Shown one piece after another: positions 20,917 through 37,350 of a DNA stretch of 64,000 nt (its first letter is position 1; the number at the start of each line of letters is the position of its first letter). The stretch comes from Gemmatimonadota bacterium. Its GTDB lineage: Bacteria; Gemmatimonadota; Gemmatimonadetes; Longimicrobiales; Gaopeijiaceae. A program made the translations under genes and the position numbers. The notes under the pieces are model-generated. The model was not told the DNA's origin. It saw only the letters and a list, made by a program, of their open reading frames with translations, and did not search any database. The stretch lies in assembly GCA_027623325.1 (NCBI GenBank), contig JAQBXY010000015.1, positions 1 through 64,000 on the forward strand, written 5' to 3'.

Positions 20917-20929
20917 CGCCATTTTGGCA
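20917..20929 (+). promoter_or_regulatory. Dyad element upstream of dnaK
   Basis: CGCCA-TTT-TGGCA is an imperfect inverted repeat of the form TGCCA-N3-TGGCA. Its centre lies about 58 bases upstream of the GG of the sigma-54-like promoter at 20980-20995. The same 13-bp element, identical at 10 of 13 aligned positions and followed in both cases by a G, occurs upstream of hslV at 37338-37350. The likely role is an activator or repressor site; this is inference. Confidence 0.4.
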
Positions 20930-20979
20930 GTTCTTCGCGAGAAACCCGCCAATCCGGCGGGATTTTCACCCTCGTTCGT

Positions 20980-20995
20980 CGGCATGGGGATTGCA
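20980..20995 (+). promoter_or_regulatory. Candidate sigma-54 promoter of dnaK
   Basis: CGGCAT-GGGGA-TTGCA matches the sigma-54 consensus TGGCAC-N5-TTGCA at 9 of 11 positions, including the near-invariant GG and GC at exact spacing. Transcription would begin near 21007, about 40 bases before the dnaK ATG. A small hairpin (CCCGCC / GGCGGG, 20945-20961) lies upstream. No CIRCE (HrcA) or HAIR (HspR) element is visible in the 269-bp intergenic region. Confidence 0.5.
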
Positions 20996-21048: not shown

Positions 21049-22992
21049 ATGGGCAAAGTCATCGGAATCGACCTCGGAACCACCAACTCGGTGGTTGCGG
21101 TCATGGAGGGCGGCGAGCCCGTCGTGATTCCAAACTCGGAAGGTGGTCGGACGACCCCGTCGGTCGTGGGCTTCACGAAGGACGGGGAGCGCCTCGTGGG
21201 ACAGGTGGCGCGTCGTCAGGCGATCACGAATCCGGAGAACACGGTGTTCTCCATCAAGCGATTCATGGGGAGAAAGCACGACGAGGTCATGGAAGAGGAG
21301 AAGCTCGTGCCGTATGACGTGGATCACGATGCGAGCAAACGCGTTACGGTGAAGATCCCGAACGCCGATAAGACGTTCACGCCCCCGGAAATCAGCGCAA
21401 TCATTCTTCAGAAGATGCGCCAGACCGCCGAGGACTACCTCGGCACCAAGGTCAGCCAGGCCGTGATCACGGTCCCCGCCTACTTCAACGACGCTCAGCG
21501 GCAGGCCACCAAGGACGCCGGCAAGATCGCCGGTCTCGAAGTCCTGCGGATCATCAACGAGCCGACCGCGGCGGCACTCGCCTACGGTCTCGACAAGAAG
21601 GCCGAAGAGAAGATCGCCGTGTTCGATCTCGGCGGCGGCACGTACGACATTTCGATCCTCGAGTTGGGTGACGGCGTCTTCGAAGTGAAGTCCACCAACG
21701 GAGACACTCACCTCGGCGGTGACGACTACGATCAGCGAGTCATCAATTGGCTCGTGACGGAGTTCAAGAAGGACCAGGGCATCGATCTGTCCAAGGACTC
21801 CATGGCTCTCCAGCGCCTCAAAGAGGCAGCCGAGAAGGCCAAGATGGAGCTGTCCACAACCATGACTTCGGACATCAACCTGCCCTTCATCACGGCGACG
21901 CAGGACGGACCGAAGCACCTGAACTACAGCCTCACGCGGGCCAAGTTCGAACAACTCGTCGACGAGCTGAATCAGCGTACGATTCCGCCCATGGAGATGG
22001 CGCTCAAGGATGCCGGGCTGACCAAAGCCGACATCGATGAGGTCATCCTGGTAGGGGGATCGACGAGAATTCCGAAGATCCAGGAGATCGTGAAGGCGTT
22101 CTTCGGCAAGGACCCACATCGGGGAGTCAATCCCGATGAGGTTGTGGCGGTAGGCGCCGCGATCCAGGGCGGAGTCCTGTCCGGAGATGTCAAGGATGTG
22201 GTGCTGCTGGACGTGACGCCGCTCTCCCTGGGCATCGAGACGCTGGGTGGTGTCATGACCTCACTGATTGAACGCAACACGACGATCCCGACCAAGAAGG
22301 CAGAGGTCTTTTCGACCGCCGAGGACACGCAGACCACGGTCGAGATCCATGTCCTTCAGGGTGAGCGGAAGATGGCGATGGACAACAAGACCATCGGCAA
22401 ATTCCAGTTGACCGGCATTCCACCGGCACCACGCGGCGTACCCCAGGTCGAGGTCACGTTCGACATCGACGCCAATGGCATTCTGCACGTCTCGGCAAAG
22501 GATCGGACGACCGGCAAAGAGCAGAAGATCCGAATCGAGGCTTCGAGCGGACTCTCGGACGCCGAGATCAACCGGATGGTGCAGGACGCAGAGGTCCACG
22601 CGTCTGAGGACGACGAACGGCGCCAAAAGGTCGAGTCACGGAATCAGCTCGACTCCCTCGTCTATCAGGTCGAGAAGGACATCGGAGAATGGGGTGACAA
22701 GGTCTCGGAAGAGACCCGGGGGCGGCTCACGGAGGCGACCGACGCCGCCAAGGAAGCGCTGAAGGGTGATAAGCTCGAGACCATCAACTCCGCCCGCGAC
22801 GAGCTCATGCAGGCATTCAGTGCGGCGGGGCAGGAGATGTACCAGTCCCAGGCGGCTGAACCCGAGGCGGCCGGAGAAGACGGGACTGAGTACGACGATC
22901 AGGGAACGGCCGAAGAGGTCGTGGACGAAGCAGCGGCGGACGATGGTGTGGTCGAAGCCGACTACGAGATCGTCGACGAGGACAAGAAGTAG
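21049..22992 (+). CDS. dnaK: Hsp70 chaperone DnaK
   Basis: This is the cytoplasmic ATP-dependent chaperone. The 647-residue protein has the complete Hsp70 layout: [18 protein letters not shown] at the N-terminus, the phosphate loops ([42 protein letters not shown]), the linker [15 protein letters not shown], the beta substrate-binding domain and the helical lid. It ends in an acidic tail finishing EDKK. It stands alone; grpE, dnaJ and hrcA are not adjacent. It is divergent from nupC and is followed by a strong hairpin terminator. A candidate sigma-54 promoter lies upstream. Confidence 0.98.
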
Positions 22993-23022
22993 TCTCCTCT
23001 GCGAACCGTCGATGATGTGAGT

Positions 23023-23056
23023 GGAGCCGGCGGGGCAACCCGCCGGCTCCTTCTCA
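23023..23056 (+). terminator. Hairpin terminator after dnaK
   Basis: A perfect 12-bp stem (GGAGCCGGCGGG / CCCGCCGGCTCC) is capped by the tetraloop GCAA, a GNRA type. It begins 31 bases after the dnaK stop and is followed by TTCTC. The T-run is poor but the stem is very stable. Confidence 0.75.
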
Positions 23057-23074
23057 TCGTCGAAGACACTTGTA

Positions 23075-23100
23075 GAAGGTCGGATCGAGATTCGACCTTC
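23075..23100 (+). repeat. Inverted repeat upstream of htrA
   Basis: GAAGGTCG at 23075-23082 and CGACCTTC at 23093-23100 are perfect 8-base arms with a 10-base spacer, about 80 bases before the htrA start. It could be an operator for envelope-stress control or a leader hairpin. No T-run follows, so a terminator is unlikely. Confidence 0.4.
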
Positions 23101-23180
23101 CCGGGTAGGAAGGACCGACATACCGGGACTCCGCCAGCGGGTACCCGGCACCAATGGATGCGACTGGGGAGGGAGTAGGC

Positions 23181-24731
23181 ATGTACGATCCGCTGAAGGC
23201 CAAGGCACGTGTCGTCATGTACGCGGCTACCGCCGCACTCGTCGGTATCGGCATCGCCGCCGGGCTTGGGTGGACAAGCACGTCCCACGCTATGCCCTTG
23301 CTCAACGAGGTCGGTCAGGTCTCGGAGGCGGCCGTGCGTCCGGCCCTGGACCTCAGCGATGCGTTCACGAATCTCGCTGATGCCGTCACTCCCGCGGTCG
23401 TTCGGATCGAGAGCCGCAGAACCGCACAGGCACGAGACCGCGAGGAGGTCCCTCAGCAGTTCCGACAGTTTTTCGATACGCCGGAAGGCACTCCCGCTCC
23501 GCCCCAGTCTCAGATTTCTGGCGGAAGCGGGTTCATCGTCTCTTCCGATGGCTACATCCTCACCAACAATCACGTCGTGGAAGGTGCGACGGACGTTCGG
23601 GTCTACTTCCCGGATCGCCGCTATTTCCAGGCTCGGATCATCGGCACGGATCCCTTTACTGACGTGGCGGTCATCAAGGTGGACGTCGACGAAACGCTTC
23701 CCGCCATGGTCATTGGCGACTCCGACCGCATCAAGGTGGGCGAGTGGATTCTCGCGATCGGCAACCCTGGATTCGGAGCGTCGACCCAACTCGACTTCAC
23801 GGTGACCGCCGGCATCATCAGCGCCCGGGGCCGCGGACTACAGCTTCTGCAGCGCGATCTGTTCAACGATCCTCGCTACGGGGCTGACCTCTCACCCTAT
23901 GCGATCGAGGATTTCATCCAGACGGACGCGGTGATCAATCCCGGGAACTCGGGTGGGCCGATGGTCAATCTCCGTGGACAGGTCGTGGGTATCAATTCTG
24001 CGATCGCGTCGACCACCGGGGTCTATCAGGGATATGGCTTCGCCATCCCGATCAATCTGGCGCGCCGAATCATGGAGGACCTCGTCGAATACGGGCATGT
24101 GAGACGGCCCCGGATCGGGGTCACCATCGAGGAAATCGAAGCGGAAGATGCCGAACAGTATGGCCTGCCCTCGGTCTCGGGGGTGCTCGTTCAGGCGGTC
24201 GATCGGAGCGGGCCTTCGGCCGGAGCGCTTCGCCCAGAAGACGTGATCGTGAGGCTGGATGACGAGCCCGTCGGGTATGTGTCTGAGTTGCAGGCGGAGA
24301 TCGCCGAACGCCGACCGGGCGACCGAGTCCGCCTCACGGTCTACCGCGCCCGTCAGTCCATCCAAGTCGAAGTCCGGCTCGGGGATGCTCCGATCAACGA
24401 CGTACCGGCCGTGGTGGCTGAAGCCGCGACCAACGCCGAAGAGCGACTCGGCATCAATGTGGAAGCACTCGATGCTCAACGCGCTCAGGACCTCGGATTC
24501 AGCGATCCCAGCGGAGTCATCCTGTCGGAGGTCGCCCGCGGAAGCGCGGCCGAGCGGCGCAACATCAACAACTATCGGGGCTACAAGCTCATCCGGATCA
24601 ACGATGCCGAGATTGCGACGCCCGATGACGTTCGTGCCGCCCTCGTCGGAGCAGCTGCGGGAGAGATCGTATCGCTGCATTTCCTGCATCCCAACGGCGA
24701 CGAACGCGTCGTAAACGTGCGGATGCCCTGA
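23181..24731 (+). CDS. DegP/HtrA-family periplasmic serine protease
   Basis: This is a trypsin-like protease/chaperone that removes misfolded envelope proteins. I choose the ATG at 23181 because GGAGGGAG sits 7-8 bases before it; an in-frame ATG at 23154 would add nine residues. The 516-residue protein has an N-terminal membrane anchor or signal (about 12-31). The catalytic triad is His131 (TNNHVV), Asp161 (DPFTDVAVIKV) and Ser257 (NPGNSGGPM). Two PDZ domains follow (about 300-390 and 410-510). It lies between dnaK and the tRNA-Leu gene, on the same strand, with its own leader. Confidence 0.95.
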   Translation: MYDPLKAKARVVMYAATAALVGIGIAAGLGWTSTSHAMPLLNEVGQVSEAAVRPALDLSDAFTNLADAVTPAVVRIESRRTAQARDREEVPQQFRQFFDTPEGTPAPPQSQISGGSGFIVSSDGYILTNNHVVEGATDVRVYFPDRRYFQARIIGTDPFTDVAVIKVDVDETLPAMVIGDSDRIKVGEWILAIGNPGFGASTQLDFTVTAGIISARGRGLQLLQRDLFNDPRYGADLSPYAIEDFIQTDAVINPGNSGGPMVNLRGQVVGINSAIASTTGVYQGYGFAIPINLARRIMEDLVEYGHVRRPRIGVTIEEIEAEDAEQYGLPSVSGVLVQAVDRSGPSAGALRPEDVIVRLDDEPVGYVSELQAEIAERRPGDRVRLTVYRARQSIQVEVRLGDAPINDVPAVVAEAATNAEERLGINVEALDAQRAQDLGFSDPSGVILSEVARGSAAERRNINNYRGYKLIRINDAEIATPDDVRAALVGAAAGEIVSLHFLHPNGDERVVNVRMP

Positions 24732-24754
24732 GCAAGGGGCTCGCGGGTGTGTGG

Positions 24755-24788
24755 ACGGGGTGCGGGACTCACAGGTCCCTCACCCCGT
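24755..24788 (+). terminator. Hairpin after htrA
   Basis: ACGGGGTG-C-GGGAC ... GTCCC-T-CACCCCGT forms a 13-bp stem with one internal mismatch and a small loop, starting 23 bases after the htrA stop. No T-run follows, so termination strength is uncertain. Confidence 0.5.
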
Positions 24789-24807
24789 TCGCCGTTACGG
24801 CCTGAGA

Positions 24808-24837
24808 TTGAACGCTTTATCTCTGTGGGTTTATCTT
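24808..24837 (+). promoter_or_regulatory. Candidate sigma-70 promoter for tRNA-Leu/tig
   Basis: TTGAAC at 24808-24813 and TATCTT at 24832-24837 are separated by 18 bases, with TTATCT one base earlier giving 17. The start point would be near 24844, immediately before the tRNA 5' end. The leader would be very short, so the call is tentative. Confidence 0.4.
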
Positions 24838-24845
24838 TGGCGAGC

Positions 24846-24928
24846 GCGAAAGTGGCGGAACTGGTAGACGCGCGGGATTTAGGATCCCGTGGCCTCGTGC
24901 CTTGGGGGTTCGAGTCCCCCCTTTCGCA
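24846..24928 (+). tRNA. tRNA-Leu (anticodon TAG)
   Basis: The cloverleaf is complete. The seven-base acceptor stem GCGAAAG pairs with CTTTCGC and the discriminator is A. The D-arm contains AACTGGTAGACGC, and the anticodon stem CGGGA/TCCCG holds the loop TTTAGGA with anticodon TAG (reads CTA and other CTN codons). The long class II variable arm GGCCTCGTGCC and the T-arm GGGGGTTCGAGTCCCCC follow. The 3' CCA is not encoded. It lies 41 bases before the trigger factor gene. Confidence 0.97.
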
Positions 24929-24969
24929 CTCGCAAGTCCCAATCTCAGTAACCCCTACCGTGTGACGGT

Positions 24970-26247
24970 ATGACGATAGACGCATCCCGACTGCAGATTT
25001 CCGTTCAGGAGCAAGAGCGGTGGCGACGGCGAATGAGCGTGACCGTTCCCGCTGCCCTCGTCCAGGAAGAGGAAAAACGAGCGGCACGGAAACTGGCTTC
25101 ACAGGCTAGCCTAAAAGGCTTCCGGAAAGGCCGTGTCCCTTCCCGTGTGATCGAGTCCCGCTTCGGGGGCGCGCTTCGCCGCGAGGCCCTCGACCGCCTC
25201 ATCGGCAGTGCCTATCGCGAGGCGTTGGCATCTCAAGAGCTGCGGCCGATCAGCGAGGGGGAAATCGACGACGTCCACTACCAGCCCGACGAAGACCTGA
25301 CCTTCGCCATCACCTTCGATGTCGAGCCGGTCCTCGAGCTCGAACGCCTCGGCGGCTTCGCCATCGAGCGCACGACACAGGCCGTGACGGACGAGCAGAT
25401 CGCGGAAGTACTCGCTCGGGTCCGGGAACAGAACGGGGTGTGGCAACCCTTCGAAGAAGGACTCCCGCAGGAAAAGGACCTCGTTTCGGTCAAGATCGTT
25501 CGCCTGGCCGAGGGAGGGGAACCGACCGACGCGGGACGTGATTATGACTTCTTGATCGGGCAGGGGGATGCGATTGCCGACATCGAGAACGCGATCAAGA
25601 CTCTCGAGGTGGGTAGGTCCGGCGACTTCGACGTCACCTTCCCCGAAGACTTCCCTGACCAGAGCCGGAGGGGGGAATCCGAGCGGATTCGTATCTCTCT
25701 CGTATCGCGCCGGTCGATGGATTTGCCCGAACTCGACGACGACCTGGCCAAACAGGTCGGCGATTTCGAAACACTCGATGCGCTCCGGAGCAGGATTCGA
25801 GAAGACATGGAGAAGGAGGCCTCGCAGCAGGCCGAGGCCGTGGTTCGCGGACGCCTGCTCGACATGCTGGTGGATGCGAACCCCTTCGAGGTTCCGGCGT
25901 CTATGGTCGCACGCTACGCCGATCGTGTGATCGGCGACGCGAAGAACATCCCGGAAGAGAAACTCGCCGAATTCCGCGAGCAGATTCGGCCGGAGGCCGA
26001 GCGGGCGGTGAAGCGGATCTTGATGGTGGAACGGATCGCCCAGGTCCAGGGCCTGGCGGCGACCGATGACGATCTCGATGTACGGATCCAGGAGATCGCT
26101 ACCAAGAACAAAGCGGACCCGGCCAAGGTATACGCAGAGTTCCAGAAGGCCGGTCGCCTCGAGTCGATGGAACGGGAGTTGACCGAGAACGCGGTATTCG
26201 AGTTCCTAAAGGGACAATCCGAGATCACCGACGCGCCGGCCGCCTGA
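24970..26247 (+). CDS. tig: Trigger factor
   Basis: This is a ribosome-associated chaperone and peptidyl-prolyl isomerase. The 425-residue protein has the ribosome-binding domain with the signature GFRKGRVP at 50-57, a central FKBP-type PPIase domain (about 160-245, including KDLVSVKIV and [13 protein letters not shown]), and the long helical C-terminal chaperone domain. It opens the tig-clpP-clpX cluster, a widely conserved order. Confidence 0.96.
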
Positions 26248-26267
26248 CGGCACGCCCAGGGAAACAC

Positions 26268-26897
26268 ATGACGATTTATCCTCCGTATGTCATCGAACGC
26301 ACCAGCCGCGGTGAACGCAGCTACGATATTTTCAGCCGGCTCCTCATGGACCGGATCGTTTTTCTCGGCACAGCGATCGACGACAACGTCGCGAACATCA
26401 TCCTCGCGCAGCTGCTCTTTTTGGACGCCGAGGACCCGGAGCGGGACATCTTCATGTACATCAATTCGCCCGGTGGCAGCGTGTACGCCGGCCTGGCGAT
26501 CTACGATACGATGCAGCACCTACGCGCCCCGGTCTCGACATTCTGTGTCGGCATGGCCGCTTCGATGGGAGCGGTGTTGCTCACGGCCGGCGCCAAAGGC
26601 AAGAGAAGCGCCCTCCCGAACTCGCGGATCATGATGCACCAGCCATCCGGTGGCTCCCACGGAACGGCCTCAGATATTCAGATCGCCGCACAAGAAATCT
26701 TGCATATCCGAGAGAAACTGAACGGTATTGTTGCTAAGCACACGGGTCAGAGCACGGAGCGGATCGCCGACGACGTCGACCGCGACAGGTTCATGAGTCC
26801 CGAGGCCGCCGTGGAGTACGGTCTCATCGATCGGGTCTTAGAGGGCCCGGTTCGGCCGGTGAAGGGAAAGCCCGTCGATTCGGACAGCGCCGAGTAG
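26268..26897 (+). CDS. clpP: ATP-dependent Clp protease proteolytic subunit
   Basis: This is the tetradecameric serine peptidase that works with ClpX. The 209-residue protein has Ser99 in [11 protein letters not shown], His124 in MMHQPSGG, and the third triad member, an Asp at about 171-173, in [11 protein letters not shown]. The N-terminal residues form the usual short propeptide/loop region ([22 protein letters not shown]). It lies 20 bp after tig and 21 bp before clpX. Confidence 0.97.
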
Positions 26898-26918
26898 AAT
26901 CGGAACGAGGAGTCGCAC

Positions 26919-28148
26919 ATGACGGACAAACACCTCCGATGCAGTTTCTGCGGAAAGTCCAAGGAGAGCGTCAAGAAGTTCATCTCCGGACCTAACGTCT
27001 ATATCTGCAACGAGTGTATCTCGCTCTGTAACGAGATCCTCGCCGAAGAGGAGGAGCGCGAGGCCCAGGAACAGACGGTTCCGAGCCCTACGCCGCAGGA
27101 GATCAAGGCGGTCCTCGACCAGTACGTGATCGGGCAGGAAGTCGCCAAGAGAGCCCTGTCCGTGTCGGTGTACAATCACTACAAGCGTGTCGCTCACCAG
27201 GGCGTGCTGGACGACGTCGAGATCGACAAGGCCAACATTCTCCTCATCGGTCCGACCGGTGTCGGCAAGACGCTGCTGGCGCAGACGCTGGCGCGAACGC
27301 TCCACGTGCCGTTCACGATCGCCGATGCCACGACGCTGACCGAGGCCGGCTACGTCGGCGAGGATGTAGAGAATATCCTCGTGCGGCTGTTGCAGGCCGC
27401 CGACTTCAACGTCGCCGAGTGCGAACGCGGCATCGTATACATCGACGAGATGGACAAGATCGCCCGAAAGTCGGAGAACCCTTCGATCACCCGTGACGTT
27501 TCGGGCGAGGGCGTGCAGCAGGCCCTTCTCAAGATCCTGGAAGGTACCATCGCAAGTGTGCCGCCTCAGGGCGGTCGCAAACACCCGCAGCAGGAATACA
27601 TCCAGATCAACACAAAGAACATCCTGTTCATTTGTGGGGGCGCCTTCGACGGATTGGAGAAGATCGTCGAGGCTCGGATCGGAAAGCGGAAGATCGGCTT
27701 CGACGGCGGCGACGTCGAGAAGAAGGAAGGCGATGTCATGCGGTGGGTCGAACCGGAAGATCTCCAGCGATATGGTCTTATTCCCGAGATCGTCGGTCGT
27801 CTCCCTGTGACTGTGAACCTCGAGGAGCTCGACGAAGCGACGCTGATACGGATTCTCCAGGAGCCGAAGAACGCTCTCGTGAAGCAATACGAGAAGATGT
27901 TCGAACTCGAGAGTATCGGCCTGACGATTGACCGAGACGCCATCGAGGCGATCGCTCGCAAGACGCTCGAACGGAACACGGGTGCGCGGGGCCTCCGGTC
28001 GATCATCGAAACGGTCATGCGCGACGTCATGTTCGACATCCCCTCTCGCAATGACGTCCGGGAGGTGGTCGTGACCGTAGAGTCGATCGAGGACGGGGTC
28101 CCTCCCCTTCTCGTCCTGCACTCGGGAGAACGGGCCAAGGAAGCGTAG
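26919..28148 (+). CDS. clpX: Clp protease ATPase subunit ClpX
   Basis: This is the AAA+ unfoldase for ClpP. The 409-residue protein has the N-terminal zinc-binding domain (Cys8, Cys11, Cys30, Cys33), Walker A GPTGVGKT at 111-118, Walker [11 protein letters not shown], the pore loop region ([11 protein letters not shown]) and the sensor/Arg-finger block [22 protein letters not shown] ribosome binding region precedes the ATG. A classical terminator follows. Confidence 0.97.
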
Positions 28149-28172
28149 ACTTTACTTGTTGCCTGGACGACA

Positions 28173-28214
28173 AGAGCCCCCGGCGCGCCGAGCGACGGGG
28201 GCTCTCCCTTTTTT
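28173..28214 (+). terminator. Rho-independent terminator after clpX
   Basis: A 9-bp stem AGAGCCCCC / GGGGGCTCT, with GC-rich loop bases able to pair further, is followed by CCC and TTTTTT at 28209-28214. It lies 24 bases after the clpX stop and separates tig-clpP-clpX from lon. Confidence 0.9.
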
Positions 28215-28292
28215 CAATGGTCCCGAAGCCGTACGATACGCGGTCGACCCTTCTCGTAGGAGCTTCCGTTTGACCCGGAGTTCCTCATCCTG

Positions 28293-30740
28293 GTGCCCAT
28301 GGCCACTCTGACTCGGGCCGAAGACCAAGTCGAAGTCCCGGACCGCCTCCCCGTGGTGGCGCTTCGCGACCTCGTATTCTTTCCCTATGTGGTCCTCCCC
28401 ATCCTCATCGGGCGGAGGAGATCGGTGGCGGCCCTCGAGGCCGCTCAAGAGGAAGACGGGCTCGTTCTCCTCGTCGCGCAGAAGGACCCGGGGATCGACG
28501 ACCCGGGCACGGCCGACCTCTTCCGGATCGGGACGATTGCGAGGGTCGTCCAGGTCAGTCGCCTACCCGACGGTACGTCTCGCGTGGTGCTCGAGGGGCT
28601 CGGTCGCGGCAAGATTCGGCGACTCACGACGACCACGGAGGCGCTTCGCGCTAGCGTCGACCTTCTGGTTGGAAGGGAATCCGATCCGCCGCTCGATCGG
28701 GAGGGCGCCCGGCCGCCAGAAATCGAAGGTGAAGCGGCCCTTGCCTCACTCTGTGACGCCGTGAGCCGGCTGTATGCTGAGTACACCCGAGCCCACGACC
28801 GAATACCGGAAGAGCTTTCGGGAATGCTGTCCGCTGCCGGAGATCGACTTCGATTCGCCCATCTGGTCGCGGGCCATATGATTTTGCCCTCGTTGGAAAA
28901 GCAGGAAATCCTCGAGGCCCAGGACACGGCGGCCCAACTCGAGATCCTAAAAGAAGTGCTCATCCGTGAGTTGGAGATCCTCCGCATCGAGAAGAAGCTG
29001 GACCGACAGATTCAGCTGCAGCTCGGCGGCAAGGATACCCCGTTCGATCTGTCACCCGGACTGAAGGTCGTCCACCGGGAGTCCGGACGAGACGAACCCG
29101 AGGAATGGGACGAGATCGCCGAGCAGATTCGCGGGGCCAACCTCCCCCCCACCGCGAGAGTACGAGCAGAAAAGGAGTTCAACCGCCTTAGGAAACTCAA
29201 CCCGGTCGCCCCGGAGGCGGCGGTGATCCGGACCCATCTCGACTGGATCGTATCGCTGCCCTGGAGCCGGCGCTCAGAGGACAACCTCGACGTCCGGCAC
29301 GCTTCCGAAGTCCTGGAAGCGGAGCACTTCGGTTTGAGCGAGGTCAAGGAGCGGGTGCTCGACCACGTTGCCGTGCTCTCGCTGGTTCGCGAGATCCGAG
29401 GGCCGATTCTCTGCCTGGTGGGGCCGCCCGGTGTCGGGAAGACGTCACTCGGACGGAGCATCGCCGGCGCCTTGGGTCGGGAGTTCGTGCGAGTGAGCCT
29501 CGGCGGTATACGCGACGAGGCTGAGATCCGGGGGCATCGCCGGACCTATGTCGGCGCGCTGCCCGGTCGGGTGATTCAGGGGATGCGTCGGAGCGGGACA
29601 CGAAATCCGGTCTTCCTCCTCGACGAGGTCGACAAGCTGGCTCGCGATTTCCACGGGGACCCGGGAGCGGCTCTCCTGGAAGTGCTCGATCCAGAGCAGA
29701 ACAAGTCCTTTACCGACCACTACCTGGAGCTTGAGTACGACCTATCGGACGTACTCTTCGTCGCCACGGCCAATACGCTCCAGGATGTACCTGATCCCCT
29801 CCGTGATCGTATGGAGGTAATTCGCCTACCGGGCTACCTCGACACGGAGAAGCGCGAGATCGCGACCCGCTTTCTCTGGCCGCGGCAGATCTCGCAACAC
29901 GGTTTGCCTGAGGATCGGATCTCCCTCTCCGCAGCCGCTCTGCACGAGATCATCGAGCGGTACACGCGCGAGGCAGGTGTACGAGAACTCGAGCGTCGCC
30001 TCTCGCGGATCGCCCGCAAGCTCGCCCGCGCCTTCGCCGACGGGCAGGACATTGGCCCCCGGATCGAGCGGGATGACCTGAAGGAACTCCTGGGTCCCCC
30101 TCCCTATCAGCCCACCGACCGTGACGAGGACGGCGACCGTGTTGGTATCGCGAACGGCCTCGCCTGGACCGCGGCGGGTGGACAGGTCATGGACGTCGAG
30201 GTGGCCATCGTTCCGGGCTCGGGGACCCTTCGGCTTACGGGAACCCTCGGCGACGTGATGAAGGAGTCGGCGCAGGCCGCGGTCACGTACGCACGATCCC
30301 GCTCGAAGCCATTGGGTCTCGACCCGCAGTTCCACGAGAAGATCGACGTCCATATCCACATTCCTGAGGGCGCCACGCCCAAGGACGGGCCTTCGGCGGG
30401 CATCACCATCGCCGTCGCGCTCATTTCGGCGCTCACCGACACGCCCACACGGGCAGACGTGGCGATGACGGGGGAGATCACTCTGCGTGGCCGGGTGATC
30501 GGGGTAGGCGGCGTCAAGGAGAAGGCGGTCGCCGCTCTGCGCTCGGGCATGAAGCGCGTGGTCTTGCCTTGGGCAAACGCTGGGGACCTCGAGACCTTGC
30601 CGCAGGAGGTGCTGGACCATGTCGCCTTCGATCTGGTGAAGACGATGGACGAAGTTCTGGATGCTGTCCTTACGCGGAGTCCAGTCATCGTCCGTCCGGT
30701 GGCGGAATCGGACCTCGGTGTTCCACTGTCGCACGGATGA
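28293..30740 (+). CDS. lon: ATP-dependent protease Lon
   Basis: This is a AAA+ serine protease for damaged and regulatory proteins. The 815-residue protein has the N-terminal substrate-binding (LAN) domain beginning LPVVALRDLVFFP, a long helical linker, Walker A GPPGVGKT at 377-384, and the FLLDEVDKL block. The protease domain carries the Ser701 (KDGPSAGIT) and Lys744 (GGVKEKAVAA) dyad, with the 43-residue spacing seen in E. coli Lon. The start could be the GTG at 28293 or the ATG two codons later. Its stop overlaps the engB ATG. Confidence 0.96.
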   Translation: MPMATLTRAEDQVEVPDRLPVVALRDLVFFPYVVLPILIGRRRSVAALEAAQEEDGLVLLVAQKDPGIDDPGTADLFRIGTIARVVQVSRLPDGTSRVVLEGLGRGKIRRLTTTTEALRASVDLLVGRESDPPLDREGARPPEIEGEAALASLCDAVSRLYAEYTRAHDRIPEELSGMLSAAGDRLRFAHLVAGHMILPSLEKQEILEAQDTAAQLEILKEVLIRELEILRIEKKLDRQIQLQLGGKDTPFDLSPGLKVVHRESGRDEPEEWDEIAEQIRGANLPPTARVRAEKEFNRLRKLNPVAPEAAVIRTHLDWIVSLPWSRRSEDNLDVRHASEVLEAEHFGLSEVKERVLDHVAVLSLVREIRGPILCLVGPPGVGKTSLGRSIAGALGREFVRVSLGGIRDEAEIRGHRRTYVGALPGRVIQGMRRSGTRNPVFLLDEVDKLARDFHGDPGAALLEVLDPEQNKSFTDHYLELEYDLSDVLFVATANTLQDVPDPLRDRMEVIRLPGYLDTEKREIATRFLWPRQISQHGLPEDRISLSAAALHEIIERYTREAGVRELERRLSRIARKLARAFADGQDIGPRIERDDLKELLGPPPYQPTDRDEDGDRVGIANGLAWTAAGGQVMDVEVAIVPGSGTLRLTGTLGDVMKESAQAAVTYARSRSKPLGLDPQFHEKIDVHIHIPEGATPKDGPSAGITIAVALISALTDTPTRADVAMTGEITLRGRVIGVGGVKEKAVAALRSGMKRVVLPWANAGDLETLPQEVLDHVAFDLVKTMDEVLDAVLTRSPVIVRPVAESDLGVPLSHG

Positions 30741-31342
30741 AGATCCGCTCCGTCGAGTATGTGGGAACCATCGCCAAGCCGGGGGGCGAGGCGCCGGGGA
30801 CCCTTCCTCAAGTGGCGTTCTCCGGTCGGTCGAACGTTGGCAAATCGTCGCTCATCAACACGCTTCTCCGGCGCACGCGCAAGAAGATCGCTCGCGTGTC
30901 CAGCACTCCGGGAAAGACACAGGCGCTCAACTTCTACAAGGTCAACGACGAGTTCTTTCTCGTGGACCTCCCGGGGTACGGGTTTGCTCAGGTGCCCGTG
31001 CCCGTCCGGGACGCCTGGTCCGGATTGATCGAATGGTACCTCGCGGAATCGGGCAACGTGCGCGGCGTCGTCCACTTGGTCGACGCGCGCCACGAGCCGA
31101 CGCCCCACGACCACCGAATGGTAGCCTACCTGGCTGAGGTCGGACTTCCCACGCTCGTGGTTTTGACCAAGACCGACAAGCTCAAAAGGTCGGAGCGTCG
31201 GAAGGCCGAAGCGAGGGCCCTGAAGGCGCTGTCGCTCGACGAGTCTCAGCTGCTGCCGTTCTCCTCGAAGACCGGGGAAGGCCGCGAAGCGCTACTCGAG
31301 GCACTCGCCGATATTCTCATGGACCCAGGAGACGAAGCGTGA
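30737..31342 (+). CDS. engB: Ribosome biogenesis GTPase EngB (YsxC/YihA)
   Basis: This is an essential small GTPase for assembly of the 50S subunit. The 201-residue protein starts at the ATG overlapping the lon stop (ATGA); longer frames upstream lie inside lon. Visible GTPase motifs are G1 GRSNVGKSS at 30-38, G2 with STPGKTQ, G3 DLPGYGFA, G4 TKTDK and G5 SSKTG. The lon-engB neighbourhood is conserved in other phyla. Confidence 0.96.
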   Translation: MKIRSVEYVGTIAKPGGEAPGTLPQVAFSGRSNVGKSSLINTLLRRTRKKIARVSSTPGKTQALNFYKVNDEFFLVDLPGYGFAQVPVPVRDAWSGLIEWYLAESGNVRGVVHLVDARHEPTPHDHRMVAYLAEVGLPTLVVLTKTDKLKRSERRKAEARALKALSLDESQLLPFSSKTGEGREALLEALADILMDPGDEA

Positions 31343-31962
31343 AGGGTCGGCTCGTCTTCTTCGCGACGAGCGCGCTGGCCGCCTGCACCCTCGCGCCCGC
31401 CCCCGAGGGAACCCCGGGGTCGAGCCTCACGAGTGAGGTCCCGGCCGGCTATGGCACGCTGACCCAGAGTGAAATCTCGATCTCCATTTCGAGCAGAGAC
31501 CTAGAGATCATGGTGACACCGCTCGACGAATCCGTGACGCGCGTCACCGCCCCGGATACGTATCGGCGTCTCGCCGGAATGGCCCAGGCCCATCGGAGCG
31601 CCGACGATTCCGACACTGCGATATTCCTGGTCTCGTTCTTCTCCTCGCAGCCCGACGTGCGCTTCATCCCCGAAGAGGTCCAGCTCATCTCTCGAGGCCT
31701 TCGCGTGCGCCCTGGCACGATCACGCCGGTGACTCCCACTTGGGGTCAACGTCGTGTTCAGCAGCGACGGACAGAAATGGCGGTCTATTCGTTCGCGGGA
31801 GAGGTGGATCTCGCGTCGGATCTAGTTGTGGCGTACGGGCTCGACCAGACGCGCGCTTGGGGTACGATTCTGCCACGGATTCAGGCGGAACGCGCGCGAG
31901 CCCGGGCACGGGCTGGAATCGGCGGACCGGGAGACCTCGGATCGCGGACGGACCCGAGCTAG
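31339..31962 (+). CDS. Predicted lipoprotein of unknown function
   Basis: This is a 207-residue exported protein. A short leader with the lipobox LAAC places the lipidated cysteine at residue 16, followed by a Pro/Gly/Ser-rich tether. The mature part looks beta-rich in the middle (SEISISISSRDLEIMVTPLD, AIFLVSFFSSQPDV) and ends in an Arg/Ala-rich tail (RARARARAG). I recognise no domain. It starts with GTG overlapping the engB stop by 4 bp and ends 7 bp before the convergent activator gene. Confidence 0.65.
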   Translation: MKGRLVFFATSALAACTLAPAPEGTPGSSLTSEVPAGYGTLTQSEISISISSRDLEIMVTPLDESVTRVTAPDTYRRLAGMAQAHRSADDSDTAIFLVSFFSSQPDVRFIPEEVQLISRGLRVRPGTITPVTPTWGQRRVQQRRTEMAVYSFAGEVDLASDLVVAYGLDQTRAWGTILPRIQAERARARARAGIGGPGDLGSRTDPS

Positions 31963-31969
31963 TTCCTGC

Positions 31970-33565
31970 TCAGGCCTCGAGTCCGTATTTCGAGATCTTG
32001 CGATAGAGGGTTCGCTCACCGATGCCGAGCAGCTCGGCCGCCTTTCGTCTATTCCCCTGAACGTCCTTGAGGGCCGTGGCGATGGCGAGGCGCTCGATTT
32101 CATCCATCGTCATCCCGGGTCGAAACACGACGACATTCTCCTCCACGGCGGGACGCGGCGGCTCCACTTCTCCCACGGACCCGCTCGGCGCATAGGACGG
32201 AATCTCGACCCATCCCTCGACGTCGATGCCGCTGAGGGGCTCGCCCGACCCGACCCGACCGACGATGGCATCAGAGCCGTGTGCGGATCCACGAGTTCGA
32301 TACACGTCGAAGTCACGGCGAAGGTCATCCATGTCGACGCGCAGTTCGACCAATGTGCGAAACACGAATTCGAGCTCCGGTCGCAGCCGACCGACTCCGA
32401 CATCCTCCAACGGCTCCCGAAAGCTCGGCACAGGCAGAAGGGACACACCTCGCCCGCCGCGCACGTCATCGGGCAGGTCTTCCGGTCGAATCGCCCGCCC
32501 CGGCGCCAACACGACCATGGACTCGACGAGATTCCTCAATTCCCGGATGTTCCCGGGCCAGCTATATGCTGTGAGGAGTTCCATCGCCGCGGGGGAAATG
32601 CCCGGAAAGACCCGATCGTTATGATCGGACACCTCGCGGACGAACGACTCCACCAGCAACGGAATGTCGGCCCGTCGTTCCCTAAGTGCGGGGAGCTCGA
32701 TGTTCAGGACGTTGAGGCGAAAGTAGAGGTCCCGTCGGAACTGCCCGATCGCCACGAAGTGTCTCAGGTCCTGGTTGGTGGCCGCAACGATCCGCACATC
32801 GACCTTGATCGACACCTCACCACCCACGCGATGGAACTCACGCTGCTCGAGAACTCGAAGAAGCTTGGTCTGGGTCGCGAGCGGCATGTCGCCGATCTCA
32901 TCCAGGAAGATGGTCCCGCCGTCTGCGAGTTCGAAGAGGCCCTTTCTGGCCGTCATGGCGCCGGTGAAGGCGCCCTTCTCGTGCCCAAAGATCTCGGACT
33001 CGATCAATGTCTGCGAGATCGCAGCGACATTGACGGCGATAAACGGCTTGTGACGGCGAGGAGAGAGAGCATGAATGCCCCGAGCCACCAGCTCCTTACC
33101 GGTTCCCGACTCCCCGGTGACGAGAACCGTCGAGCCCACGGGTGCAATTTGAACGACACGCTCGAGTACCTGGTACATGGCGTCGGTCTCACCGACGATC
33201 CCGGTGATCTCACGCAAACGCTGCCGCTCGATTACACGCCGACCGAGCAGAACGATGTCCTCCACCGACGCCGAGCGCGTAAACACCTCCTCGTACCCTG
33301 GCCGCCGCCCTCGCACATGCTCGTCGCTCTCACTGATCGCGAAGATCGGAACGTGAAGCTCTTCATGCGCTTGGCGTGCCAGCTCAGGGACCTGGTCCTC
33401 TTGGAAGCCGCCGGTTAGAACCAGGAGTGCCACGCTCGAGTCCTTCGTCAGCCGTTCGGCGGGAGTCACGAGTTCCGTGGGGTACCCGGCCTTCTGGAAG
33501 CCTTGTCGTAAGGCTCCCGCGCGCGGAAGGTCGTGCGTCGACACGAGGACCCGATCCCCCTTCAC
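31970..33565 (-). CDS. Sigma-54-dependent activator with degenerate receiver
   Basis: This 531-residue bacterial enhancer-binding protein has an N-terminal receiver-like domain (about 1-115), a central AAA+ domain (about 120-360) and a C-terminal Fis-type helix-turn-helix (NRRKAAELLGIGERTLYRKI). Walker A GESGTGKE is at 151-158 and the sigma-54 contact loop GAFTGA at 198-203. In the receiver the phospho-acceptor strand reads LLVLTGG, with no Asp, and the usual acidic pair and Lys are also missing, so it is probably not switched by phosphorylation. A 90-residue linker precedes the HTH. The start is a GTG overlapping the moaB stop (GTGA), so it ends the hslV-hslU-gcvT-moaB cluster. Confidence 0.9.
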   Translation of the reverse strand: MKGDRVLVSTHDLPRAGALRQGFQKAGYPTELVTPAERLTKDSSVALLVLTGGFQEDQVPELARQAHEELHVPIFAISESDEHVRGRRPGYEEVFTRSASVEDIVLLGRRVIERQRLREITGIVGETDAMYQVLERVVQIAPVGSTVLVTGESGTGKELVARGIHALSPRRHKPFIAVNVAAISQTLIESEIFGHEKGAFTGAMTARKGLFELADGGTIFLDEIGDMPLATQTKLLRVLEQREFHRVGGEVSIKVDVRIVAATNQDLRHFVAIGQFRRDLYFRLNVLNIELPALRERRADIPLLVESFVREVSDHNDRVFPGISPAAMELLTAYSWPGNIRELRNLVESMVVLAPGRAIRPEDLPDDVRGGRGVSLLPVPSFREPLEDVGVGRLRPELEFVFRTLVELRVDMDDLRRDFDVYRTRGSAHGSDAIVGRVGSGEPLSGIDVEGWVEIPSYAPSGSVGEVEPPRPAVEENVVVFRPGMTMDEIERLAIATALKDVQGNRRKAAELLGIGERTLYRKISKYGLEA

Positions 33566-34059
33566 GATCCGGCGTCCCGTGCGGAGTGTGGCGCAGTGGG
33601 ATCGCGCAGCAAGGCACAAGCGTGTTCAATGATGGGCGATAGGACTGCAAGTCCATCTTCGACGCCTCCGGGGCTGCCCGGGAGATTCACGATCAACGCG
33701 CGCCCCCGCGTACCCGAGACACCCCGCGACAAGATGGAGAAGGGGGTCGAGACGAGGCCGCGGCGGCGAATCTCCTCGGCGATGCCTGGTGCCTCGCGTT
33801 CCAGAACGGCTCGGGTCGCCTCCGGCGTGACATCTCGCTCGGCAAGCCCCGTCCCGCCCGTCGTAACGATCAAGGCGATACCTTCGTCCGCCCACTCCAC
33901 CAGGATCGGGGAAATCTGGGCGGTCTCGTCATGTACGACCGCTCTCCGCACGACGGAGTAGCCGTGCGCTGCGCACCACGCCACGATCTTCTCACCACTC
34001 ACGTCCTCGCGGACTCCGTCCGCTGATCGGTCGCTCACGGTGAGTACTCCGACGGTCAT
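33562..34059 (-). CDS. moaB: MoaB/Mog-family molybdopterin protein
   Basis: This protein acts in molybdenum-cofactor synthesis, in molybdopterin adenylylation (MogA-type) or as its MoaB homologue. The 165-residue protein has the characteristic VGVLTVSDRSADG opening, the TTGGTGLAERDVTPEAT signature and a terminal NLPGSPGG. I use the ATG at 34059, which has GGAAG upstream; a GTG four codons earlier is also possible. It lies between gcvT (27 bp) and the activator gene, which it overlaps by 4 bp. No other moa or mod gene is in the window. Confidence 0.85.
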   Translation of the reverse strand: MTVGVLTVSDRSADGVREDVSGEKIVAWCAAHGYSVVRRAVVHDETAQISPILVEWADEGIALIVTTGGTGLAERDVTPEATRAVLEREAPGIAEEIRRRGLVSTPFSILSRGVSGTRGRALIVNLPGSPGGVEDGLAVLSPIIEHACALLRDPTAPHSARDAGS

Positions 34060-34086
34060 GTGGGCTTCCACGCGCGTTCCCGACCC

Positions 34087-35196
34087 CTATCGTTTGATCG
34101 AACCCTCGGTGTAGAACGGAGGGCGTTGAACGACGGCGTCAATCAATCGCCCCCGGGCGTCGATCTGGAGAACGGTGTCCGGCTTGGACAGCTCCGTGGG
34201 GACATACCCGAGCGCGACACCGATCCCGAGCGTCGGACTCACGGTTCCACTCGTGACCGAGCCCACGACCTGCCCACCGGCGACGACGGGATAGCCCGGC
34301 CGCGGAAAGCCCTTATCGGTTAAACGCAGGCCCACGAGCCGGCGCGGAACGCCTGCATCCTTCTGGGTCGCGAGGGCGCTTCTCCCGACGAAGTCACCCT
34401 TGTCGAACTTGGTTACCCAGCCGAGTCCCGACTCGAGTGTCGTGTGCTCTTCGTCCAGGTCGTTGCCATACAACGCGTAGCCCACCTCGAGGCGGAGCGA
34501 GTCTCGCGCACCCAGGCCAGCGGGAATCAAGCCCGCGTCGCGCCCCGCTGCCAAGAGAGCACTCCAGAGGGCAGGTGCATGCTCGGCGGGGATGTACAGC
34601 TCGAACCCGTCCTCGCCGGTGTAGCCCGTGCCGCTGATTACCGCAGGCACATTCCCGACCTCGCCCTCGATGAAGCGGTAGTACTTCACGTCGTCGACAT
34701 CGATGTTCGCCAACGGGCGCAGGACCTCACGGGCCATGGGCCCCTGCAGCGCCAGAAGCGCGGTCGCCTCGGAGACGTCGGAGATCTCCACGTCGAAGTC
34801 CTTGGCGTGACGTGAGAGCCAAGCCCAGTCCTTGTCCAGATTGGATGCGTTGACGACCAGCATATAGCGGTCCTCGAACCGATAGATGATCAGATCATCG
34901 ATCACACACCCCGACTCGAGGCACATGGCAGAGTACTGGGCCTGACCGATTTCAATGCGCTCGGCATCGTTGACGGAGATCCGCTGTACGAGTGCGAGTG
35001 AATCCGGCCCCCGGACGATGAACTCGCCCATGTGCGACACGTCGAACAGCCCACACGCCTCACGCACCGCCTTGTGCTCCGCGGTGATGCCTGACGGGTA
35101 CTGTACGGGCATGGCGAACCCCGCGAATGGCACCATCTTCCCGCCCAGGGCGACGTGCTGGTCATGCAAAGGTGTGTGCTTCAGACCATCGGTCAT
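34087..35196 (-). CDS. gcvT: Glycine cleavage system T protein (aminomethyltransferase)
   Basis: This enzyme transfers the methylene group from the lipoylated H protein to tetrahydrofolate, releasing ammonia. The 369-residue protein has full family length with the motifs KMVPFAGFAMPVQYP, LFDVSHMGEF, the folate-binding GTGYTGEDGFELY, LGARDSLRLEVGYALYGNDLD and the C-terminal RPGYPV and GTVSPTLGIGVALGYV blocks. It lies alone, without gcvH or gcvP, 43 bp downstream of hslU on the same strand. Confidence 0.94.
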   Translation of the reverse strand: MTDGLKHTPLHDQHVALGGKMVPFAGFAMPVQYPSGITAEHKAVREACGLFDVSHMGEFIVRGPDSLALVQRISVNDAERIEIGQAQYSAMCLESGCVIDDLIIYRFEDRYMLVVNASNLDKDWAWLSRHAKDFDVEISDVSEATALLALQGPMAREVLRPLANIDVDDVKYYRFIEGEVGNVPAVISGTGYTGEDGFELYIPAEHAPALWSALLAAGRDAGLIPAGLGARDSLRLEVGYALYGNDLDEEHTTLESGLGWVTKFDKGDFVGRSALATQKDAGVPRRLVGLRLTDKGFPRPGYPVVAGGQVVGSVTSGTVSPTLGIGVALGYVPTELSKPDTVLQIDARGRLIDAVVQRPPFYTEGSIKR

Positions 35197-35239
35197 CCTT
35201 CGGACTCCAGAATATGTGGTTTCGGTTCGTGCGGGGTCA

Positions 35240-36700
35240 TCACAGGATGTAGCGACTCAGATCCTCGTCATCGGAGACCTTCCGGAGTCGATCCTGCACG
35301 AACTCCTTGTCGACCAGGAGGGGGTCCTTCAACCCCTCCGGCAGGTCGAACATGACCTCCTCCAGCAGGGTCGTCATGACCGTCTGCAGTCGGCGGGCAC
35401 CGATATTCTCCATTCGGTCATTGAGCTCCATCGCGATGCGAGCGATCTCCTCAACCCCCTCATCGGTGAACGAGATGCTCGCGCCCTCCGTTTCGATGAG
35501 CGCGCGGTACTGTTCGAGGAGCGCGTTCTTCGGCTCCTTGAGGATTCGCACGAACTCTTCCTGACCCAGCGTCTGAAGTTCGACGCGAATCGGAAAGCGG
35601 CCCTGGAGCTCGGGAATCAGGTCCGATGGTTTGGCGACGTGAAATGCCCCGGCTGCGATGAAGAGAATGTGGTCGGTTCGCACCAATCCATACTTCGTCG
35701 TCACAGTCGACCCCTCAACGATCGGAAGCAGATCGCGTTGGACCCCTTCTCGACTCACGTCGGGGCCGTGGGTCCCACGTTCGCCCGCCACCTTGTCGAT
35801 CTCGTCGAGGAAGACGATACCCATCTCCTCAGCTCGATACAGCGCCTCGTTCACCACCTCATCCATGTCGACCAGCTTGTCGAGCTCATCCTGCAGCAGA
35901 ATGCGCCGCGCCTCGGCGACGGAGACCTTCCGACGCTTCTTCTTCTTCGGCAGCATCTCCTGGAGCATCTCGGTGAAGTTGTAGTCCATTCCTTCACCAC
36001 CACCCATCGGGACCATCATGCCATCGATCGATGCCGACTGAGTTACCTCGATCTCGACCTCCCGCTCCTCGATCTTTCCATCCAGGAGCAGCTTACCCAG
36101 CTTTTCACGGGTGCGCGCTCGGCGATCCTGCACCCCCTCGCCGCGCGGTTCCACTCCGTCGGGGCCCACCACGAAAACGCTGGCGCCCTCAGCCGGTGGT
36201 GCCGGGTCGGGGTTGGTAACGGGGAGCAGAAGGTCGAGAAGTCTCTCGTGTACTCGGCTCTCGGCGATGTCCTGCACGTCGTACTCTCGATCCGCACGCA
36301 CGAGGTTGATCGAAATATCGACGAGGTCCCGGATCATCGACTCGACATCGCGGCCGACGTATCCGACCTCGGTGAATTTTGACGCCTCCACCTTGAGGAA
36401 GGGGGCGCCCGCCAGCCGAGCCAGACGGCGGGCGATTTCCGTCTTGCCCACACCTGTGGGTCCGATGAGGATCAGGTTGTTGGGTGCGATCTCCTGCCGC
36501 ATCTCCTCCTCGACCCGTTGCCGTCTCCAGCGATTCCTGAGAACGATGGCGACCGACTTCTTCGCATCGTTCTGGCCGATGATGTACTTGTCGAGCTCGG
36601 CGACGATCTGCCGTGGGGTCAGCTCATCGAGCCAGGGCTCCTCGGCGCCCTCTCCAACCGGGAGGATGGGGGCGGTCTTCTTGAGCGCGTCCGCCTTCAT
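35240..36700 (-). CDS. hslU: ATPase subunit HslU of the HslVU protease
   Basis: This AAA+ unfoldase works with HslV. The 486-residue protein has the N-terminal [17 protein letters not shown] block, Walker A GPTGVGKT at about 80-87, the [18 protein letters not shown] pore region, the inserted I-domain (about 150-260), Walker [11 protein letters not shown], and the C-terminal Arg-finger block [10 protein letters not shown] ending RYIL, the tail that docks into HslV. About 20 extra residues precede the conserved start. It overlaps hslV by 4 bp. Confidence 0.97.
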
Positions 36701-37260
36701 GCTTGGCCCCCTCCGTTCGCGCCCAATTCGAGGACGACGATGTCCTTGTTGGTGTAGATGCAGATGTCACCGGCGATCTCCAGCGAACGACGCACGATCT
36801 CGGACGCATCGAGGTCGGACGACTGGAGGAGAGCTCGAGCGGCTGCGAGCGCGTACGAGCCTCCTGAGCCGATCGCGAGCACGTCGTTGTCGGGCTCGAT
36901 GACATCTCCGGTGCCACTGACGAGGAAGAGATGGTCAGCGTCCGCCACCGCGAGGAGAGCGTCGAGACGCCTCAAATAGCGATCCGTCCGCCAATCCTTG
37001 GCGAGTTCGACGACCGCTTTCCTCATGTTGGCCGGGTACCGATCCAGCTTCTCCTCGAGCTTCTCGAAAAGCGTGAACGCGTCTGCGACGGCACCCGCAA
37101 ACCCCGCAAGGATCTTTCCACCCTTCAGTGCCCGGACCTTTCGAGCGCTGCCCTTTACGACGGTATCGCCCATCGTGACTTGTCCGTCGCCGCCCATGGC
37201 GACACGGCCGGCCCTTCGGACGGCGAGAACTGTGGTGGCGCGAACTTCGGGTAGGCTCAT
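36697..37260 (-). CDS. hslV: Peptidase subunit HslV of the HslVU protease
   Basis: This is a proteasome-like N-terminal threonine peptidase. The product from the ATG at 37260 is 187 residues; the frame runs 20 codons further upstream without conserved sequence. The mature N-terminus is TTVLAVRR, so the catalytic threonine is Thr9 after an eight-residue propeptide (MSLPEVRA) that must be removed. Family motifs [29 protein letters not shown] and [12 protein letters not shown] are intact. It overlaps hslU by 4 bp. A candidate sigma-54 promoter lies about 45-60 bases before the ATG. Confidence 0.97.
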
Positions 37261-37303: not shown

Positions 37304-37319
37304 TGCAAGGGAAGGACCA
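37304..37319 (-). promoter_or_regulatory. Candidate sigma-54 promoter of hslVU
   Basis: Read on the minus strand, TGGTCC-TTCCC-TTGCA matches TGGCAC-N5-TTGCA at 9 of 11 positions, with exact GG-to-GC spacing. The predicted start point is near 37292, about 30 bases before the hslV ATG. The element is between the xerC stop and hslV, so hslV-hslU-gcvT-moaB-activator could be transcribed separately from the upstream xerC cluster. Confidence 0.5.
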
Positions 37320-37337
37320 AGAATCTAACAAGAAATC

Positions 37338-37350
37338 TGCCGATATGGCA
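37338..37350 (-). promoter_or_regulatory. Dyad element upstream of hslV
   Basis: On the minus strand this reads TGCCA-TAT-CGGCA, a near-perfect inverted repeat (TGCC / GGCA arms). It matches the element upstream of dnaK at 10 of 13 bases, and GCCA and GGCA-G are identical in both. Its centre is about 26 bases upstream of the GG of the candidate promoter, versus about 58 at dnaK. The 32-base difference is close to three helical turns. Confidence 0.4.

Follow-up and report, generated by a model that had tools for sequence, protein, structure and literature searches.

A conserved sigma-54 promoter with helically phased dyads before dnaK in the Gemmatimonadota, and a candidate NtrC-family activator

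Judging from the sequences available, the whole phylum Gemmatimonadota appears to drive dnaK through sigma-54 and a dedicated activator that would not be conventionally phosphorylatable. The explanation that best accounts for the observations, and one that we hold to be probable, joins a sigma-54 promoter of dnaK, an NtrC-family activator bound at the dyads upstream of it, and a module that includes an hsp20 gene and probably the hslV operon. The motif, its conservation and helical phasing, the gene order and the pseudo-receiver of the candidate activator are all read directly from the DNA, and the features lying in the window, that is, the whole stretch of 64,000 nucleotides analysed here, are collected in Table 1. 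Bacterial heat-shock control is usually described in terms of sigma-32, HrcA/CIRCE, HspR/HAIR or CtsR, dnaK being regulated through HrcA/CIRCE or RpoH in many bacteria, and sigma-54 is mostly associated with functions in nitrogen, motility and the envelope. A search of the literature, with subscription journals mostly outside its scope, gave no report of dnaK being under sigma-54 in Gemmatimonadota, and the arrangement suggests that heat-shock genes are switched on throughout this phylum in a manner not reported before.

Table 1. Features of the dnaK and hslV regions, with positions in the window
Feature	Position	Strand	Basis or remark
Distal dyad CGCCATTTTGGCA of dnaK	20917..20929	+	midpoint at about -83, 57 bp upstream of the T of the -24 element
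Proximal dyad CGCCAATCCGGCG of dnaK	20947..20959	+	midpoint at about -53, 27 bp upstream of the -24 element
Candidate sigma-54 -24/-12 promoter element CGGCATGGGGATTGCA of dnaK	20980..20995	+	sequence; kept in 86/87 phylum members
dnaK (Hsp70)	21049..22992	+	Pfam HSP70, E=1e-268
Terminator-like hairpin 3' of dnaK	23024..23049	+	sequence
Candidate activator, NtrC-family	31970..33565 (open frame to 33619)	-	pseudo-receiver, sigma-54 AAA+ with GAFTGA, Fis-type HTH; closes the hslV operon
MoaB/MogA-like (MoCF_biosynth)	33562..34071	-	
gcvT-like aminomethyltransferase	34087..35196	-	
hslU	35240..36700	-	Pfam AAA_2/AAA; overlaps the end of hslV
hslV (ClpQ protease)	36697..37260 (ATG 37260)	-	Pfam Proteasome; orthologues
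Sigma-54-like element TGGTCCTTCCCTTGCA before hslV	37304..37319	-	intact in part of the relatives
GTTAGATTC	37321..37329	-	adjoins the hslV dyad; retained also in relatives that have lost the sigma-54 element
hslV dyad TGCCATATCGGCA	37338..37350	-	midpoint 25 bp upstream of the -24-like element; conserved in relatives

The dnaK promoter region across the phylum

The element CGGCATGGGGATTGCA, which a sequence-only reading of the window had proposed as a sigma-54-type promoter with coordinates and counts that proved exact, agrees with TGGCAC-N5-TTGCA at 9 of 11 positions, keeps the GG-N10-GC spacing exactly and ends 53 bases upstream of the dnaK ATG, which places the predicted transcription start at about 21006. 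That reading had seen the distal dyad, conserved in position (55-59 bp) in most genomes of families f1-f3, and had overlooked the proximal one, which relatives retain at 25-27 bp in forms such as CGCCATTTCGGCG. The proximal dyad resembles a terminator hairpin (CCCGCC-AATC-CGGCGGG, about 20945-20961), a role that was rejected because the hairpin is the dyad itself, its position is conserved and no gene on the same strand ends upstream. The dnaK gene is probably monocistronic.

Conservation was followed in 87 dnaK upstream regions from nine Gemmatimonadota families. A sigma-54 element scoring at least 16 occurs in 86 of them, against a mean of 13.2 and a maximum of 22 in dinucleotide shuffles, and 76 regions combine the element with a dyad 8-95 bp upstream (shuffled mean 0.4, largest 3). 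In a further set of 20 genomes the element scores at least 16 in 19, and 15 of the 20 have a dyad, placed in 14 cases at the ladder positions given below. Phylogenetic footprinting of this region, which had been proposed as a check, reveals overwhelming conservation, and we hold with very high confidence that a conserved sigma-54 promoter exists at dnaK. It is very improbable that the element is a chance, non-functional one and that dnaK depends on a sigma-70-type promoter under HrcA: such a situation would be in line with the presence of HrcA in 56 of 59 relatives and with a sigma-54 pattern that is not by itself enriched genome-wide, but it has to face the persistence of the element in all but one of the 87 regions while the surrounding sequence diverges, as well as the distribution of CIRCE. 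No CIRCE-like site (TTAGCACTC-N9-GAGTGCTAA) was found before dnaK in the window, in keeping with the earlier observation, and the 87 upstream regions gave one weak match, so that CIRCE control of dnaK was rejected on this search and HrcA presumably serves other genes. The difference from the HrcA/CIRCE system is also one of gene order, as hrcA adjoins dnaJ on a contig other than that of dnaK in the genome of the window.

The distances between dyad and sigma-54 element form a ladder at 15, 26, 37, 47, 57, 68, 78 and 88 bp, for which 10.5 bp is the best period among those from 8 to 14 bp. This phasing amounts to R=0.83 after deduplication by genus and to R=0.72 over 29 family-level classes, a value reached by none of 20,000 random sets; the latter is the safer figure, since related species share positions by descent. 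Most dyads are therefore confined to a single helix face, and the ladder represents a clear natural record of the helix-face constraint on activator placement. Two dnaK dyads at 26 and 57 bp are found in most genomes of the home family and order, a single dyad, at 15 bp, in f4 and f5, and pairs at 37 and 78 bp in f7 and at 16-17 and 37 bp in f9. Some genomes of family f5 retain the sigma-54 element with no recognisable dyad. The motif extends to CTGCCA-N3-TGGCAG, with the outer C at 73% and the outer G at 68%, both being positions unused in selection. The dyad is very probably the binding site of the dnaK regulator.

In the window, 27 dyad-like sites stand against 19 expected and 27 sigma-54 pattern sites against 25, neither excess being significant, and across the genome neither of the two shows enrichment relative to its reversed control. 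It is the combination of both motifs that is significant, and neither of them singly: a sigma-54-like element with an in-phase upstream dyad occurs only before dnaK and hslV in the whole 64 kb, and a strict dyad plus sigma-54 pattern gave 25 matches in 59 genomes, 21 of them before dnaK. A large regulon was rejected, the dyad not being enriched genome-wide and the strict combined pattern being nearly confined to dnaK. The list of regulon members is a partial one, drawn up from pattern searches in the genome of the window (3.35 Mb, 60 contigs) and from stretches of it.

Beyond the phylum, a matching arrangement was absent from 24 dnaK upstream regions of named non-Gemmatimonadota genomes. A Gemmataceae match was rejected, having ATGC in place of TTGC and a dyad out of phase at 116 bp. 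Within the phylum, genome G058 carries a second dnaK copy (L165, G058:C273) that lacks a good sigma-54 element, the other dnaK of this genome having one.

The hsp20 gene and the hslV operon

Among 71 sigma-54-like sites fetched from the genome of the window, the best-scoring one is TGGCACGGCGATTGCA, which ends 40 bases before an hsp20 gene (product matching Pfam PF00011 with E=2.5e-22) and is preceded by three in-phase dyads, of which that at 27 bp is weaker than those at 68 and 100 bp. Since hsp20 also has a sigma-54 element with in-phase dyads, two chaperone genes, dnaK and hsp20, carry the module, and hsp20 is likely to be a true member of the regulon. The locus (L032, contig C15:18412-21427, minus strand) shows a perfect sigma-54 element.

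The hslV dyad is identical to the distal dyad of dnaK at 10 of 13 positions and both are followed by G, as had been counted before. The 32-base difference between their distances to the promoter, already described as about three turns, turns out to equal the spacing between the distal and proximal dnaK dyads, the hslV dyad holding the proximal position (a register of 25 bp, compared with 26-27 bp for the proximal dnaK dyad). This dyad is present in 17 aligned relatives, in most of them with the adjacent GTTAGATTC, which follows it by 5-9 bp (37321-37337, minus strand). The sigma-54 element before hslV scores at least 16.5 in only 6 of these 17 relatives and is lost in several that retain the dyad; it is probably functional in three genera and lost elsewhere, since it recurs in those three at the same distance. 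The idea of one regulator for dnaK and hslV gains from the phylum-wide, helically phased promoter and dyads of dnaK and from the common register of the hslV dyad, and is weakened by the small share of relatives with an intact hslV element. As an interpretation, a sigma-54 promoter and a dyad common to dnaK and hslV under one regulator is supported, and we lean towards including the hslV operon among the regulon members of this genus. Moreover, hslV, hslU, gcvT, the MoaB-like gene and the candidate activator stand in a row on the same strand, overlapping or separated by short gaps, so that transcription from the hslV promoter would reach the activator gene as well.

A different role for the dyads has to be weighed at this point. 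GTTAGATTC is possibly a sigma-70-type -10, with the hslV dyad over the -35 region, and the dyads might be operators for a different protein, either a repressor or an auxiliary DNA-binding factor, at promoters of the sigma-54 (dnaK, hsp20) or sigma-70 (hslV) type. The persistence of the hslV dyad and GTTAGATTC where the sigma-54 element has been lost would agree with such a protein, as would the dnaK dyads of two families at about -41, nearer the promoter than is usual for enhancer sites. However, phasing maintained over eight turns and the multiplicity of sites fit an activator contacting the polymerase, and sigma-54 promoters require an activator anyway, which makes a separate protein decidedly unlikely and keeps activator binding as the preferred reading.

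The candidate activator and a proposed mechanism

The protein encoded at 31970-33565 has the domains of a sigma-54 activator (Pfam PF00158, 8.6e-71; PF02954, 3.8e-12), and in its GAFTGA loop G198 and F200-A203 are invariant and A199 nearly so. Its N-terminal domain matches receivers, and a predicted model shows the alternating strand-helix order found in them. The succession of receiver, AAA+ and Fis-type HTH is that of NtrC1 (PDB 1ny5, 4l4u; E of about 1e-104 to 1e-112), from which the protein differs in that the phosphorylated Asp of NtrC1 is matched in the alignment by Thr51, invariant in 24 orthologues, and in having a conserved extra helix (RPELEFVFRTLVELRVDMDDLRREFEAYR-like, residues 396-426) between the AAA+ domain and the HTH. 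The phosphorylatable Asp of NtrC-type two-component receivers is absent, and a pseudo-receiver of this kind suggests that the signal does not come from a histidine kinase. That DnaK itself or misfolded protein may be this signal is an attractive idea; on general knowledge of the genes controlled, a heat or unfolded-protein signal seems rather likely.

The gene is single-copy; of the 59 genomes in the set of relatives, 58 have an orthologue, as do 119 of 130 genomes of the phylum; gcvT, moaB or hslU stand alongside it in several families, and in five of them (f1, f2, f3, f7 and f8) it lies within about 11 kb of dnaK. The sequence-only reading had pointed to this protein as the putative regulator, a suggestion strengthened by the finding of a phylum-wide, single-copy sigma-54 activator whose gene closes the hslVU operon, downstream of one dyad. 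Synteny, co-conservation and operon context argue for its binding to the dyads and make it the favoured candidate for the dnaK regulator. Another NtrC-family protein of the genome might act at the same promoter and dyads, as RpoN is accompanied by five full sigma-54 activators and dyads are kept in five of the seven genomes in which none of the 11 candidates scored per genome matched the activator at E<=1e-98, although the gene may be missed there. This possibility is unlikely in view of 31970 being the activator kept in single copy across the phylum, beside regulated genes, and of the small genome of relative G026 (L159; reduced, 2.0 Mb), where only two sigma-54 activator matches are found and the dnaK sigma-54 element and dyad are still present. 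The dnaK match of G026 contains an internal TAA stop.

With the 31970 protein as the preferred activator, we infer sigma-54 dependence, binding by this protein and induction by heat or misfolded protein. In the proposed mechanism, dnaK would be transcribed from the sigma-54 promoter in this genome and in nearly the whole phylum. A dimeric regulator, most likely the phylum-conserved NtrC-family protein, would bind CTGCCA-N3-TGGCAG dyads on one helix face between about -41 and -115, often two of them 31-32 bp apart, and would open the promoter as a sigma-54 enhancer-binding protein. With a degenerate receiver and no usual phosphorylation, it would probably answer to a ligand, a protein partner or temperature, and not to a histidine kinase. 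The hsp20 gene of this genome would be under the same sigma-54/dyad module, which in this genus and close genera would probably also control the hslV-hslU-gcvT-moaB-activator operon, the activator being in that case autoregulated. A bolder and frankly tentative extension is that the core heat-shock response is run by sigma-54 and a dedicated, phosphorylation-independent activator sensing chaperone demand (for example DnaK or its clients through the pseudo-receiver or the extra helix) and autoregulated through the hslVU operon, a system that would functionally take the place of dnaK control by sigma-32 or HrcA.

Known heat-shock systems and gene neighbourhood

Sigma-54 control of single heat-shock genes (lonD, ibpB, grpE/groES) is already known. 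According to the passage of PMC9109919 that cites Ueki and Inouye (2002), the NtrC-like HsfA of Myxococcus xanthus directly activates the heat-shock gene lonD and is phosphorylated by HsfB. The likeness lies in an NtrC-like activator acting on a heat-shock gene; as far as that passage goes, HsfA is phosphorylated and its target is the Lon protease, whereas here a receiver lacking the acceptor Asp would act on dnaK and hsp20 phylum-wide. An HsfA-type phosphorelay control by a histidine kinase does not match the 31970 receiver, which is without that Asp. In Bacteroidota, grpE/groES are sigma-54-dependent, and chaperone enrichment has been predicted in Bacteroidota and Planctomycetota, in agreement with sigma-54 control of general chaperone genes outside proteobacteria; in the portions of that source available, Gemmatimonadota are unmentioned and neither dyads nor phasing nor a dedicated activator are described (PMC12316311). 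The small heat-shock protein gene ibpB of E. coli is also transcribed by sigma-54 (PMC4370416). It resembles hsp20 in being a small heat-shock protein gene under sigma-54, and differs as a single gene in which this control stands beside that of sigma-32. We know of no phased dyad array at E. coli ibpB.

As for the surroundings of these genes in the window, positions 21049-37260 hold a protein-quality cluster of dnaK, a degP-like gene, tig, clpP, clpX, lon, the activator, hslU and hslV within 17 kb, which is partly retained in several Gemmatimonadota families. A tRNA-Leu-like sequence, recognised by eye, lies between the degP-like gene and tig (24851-24930).
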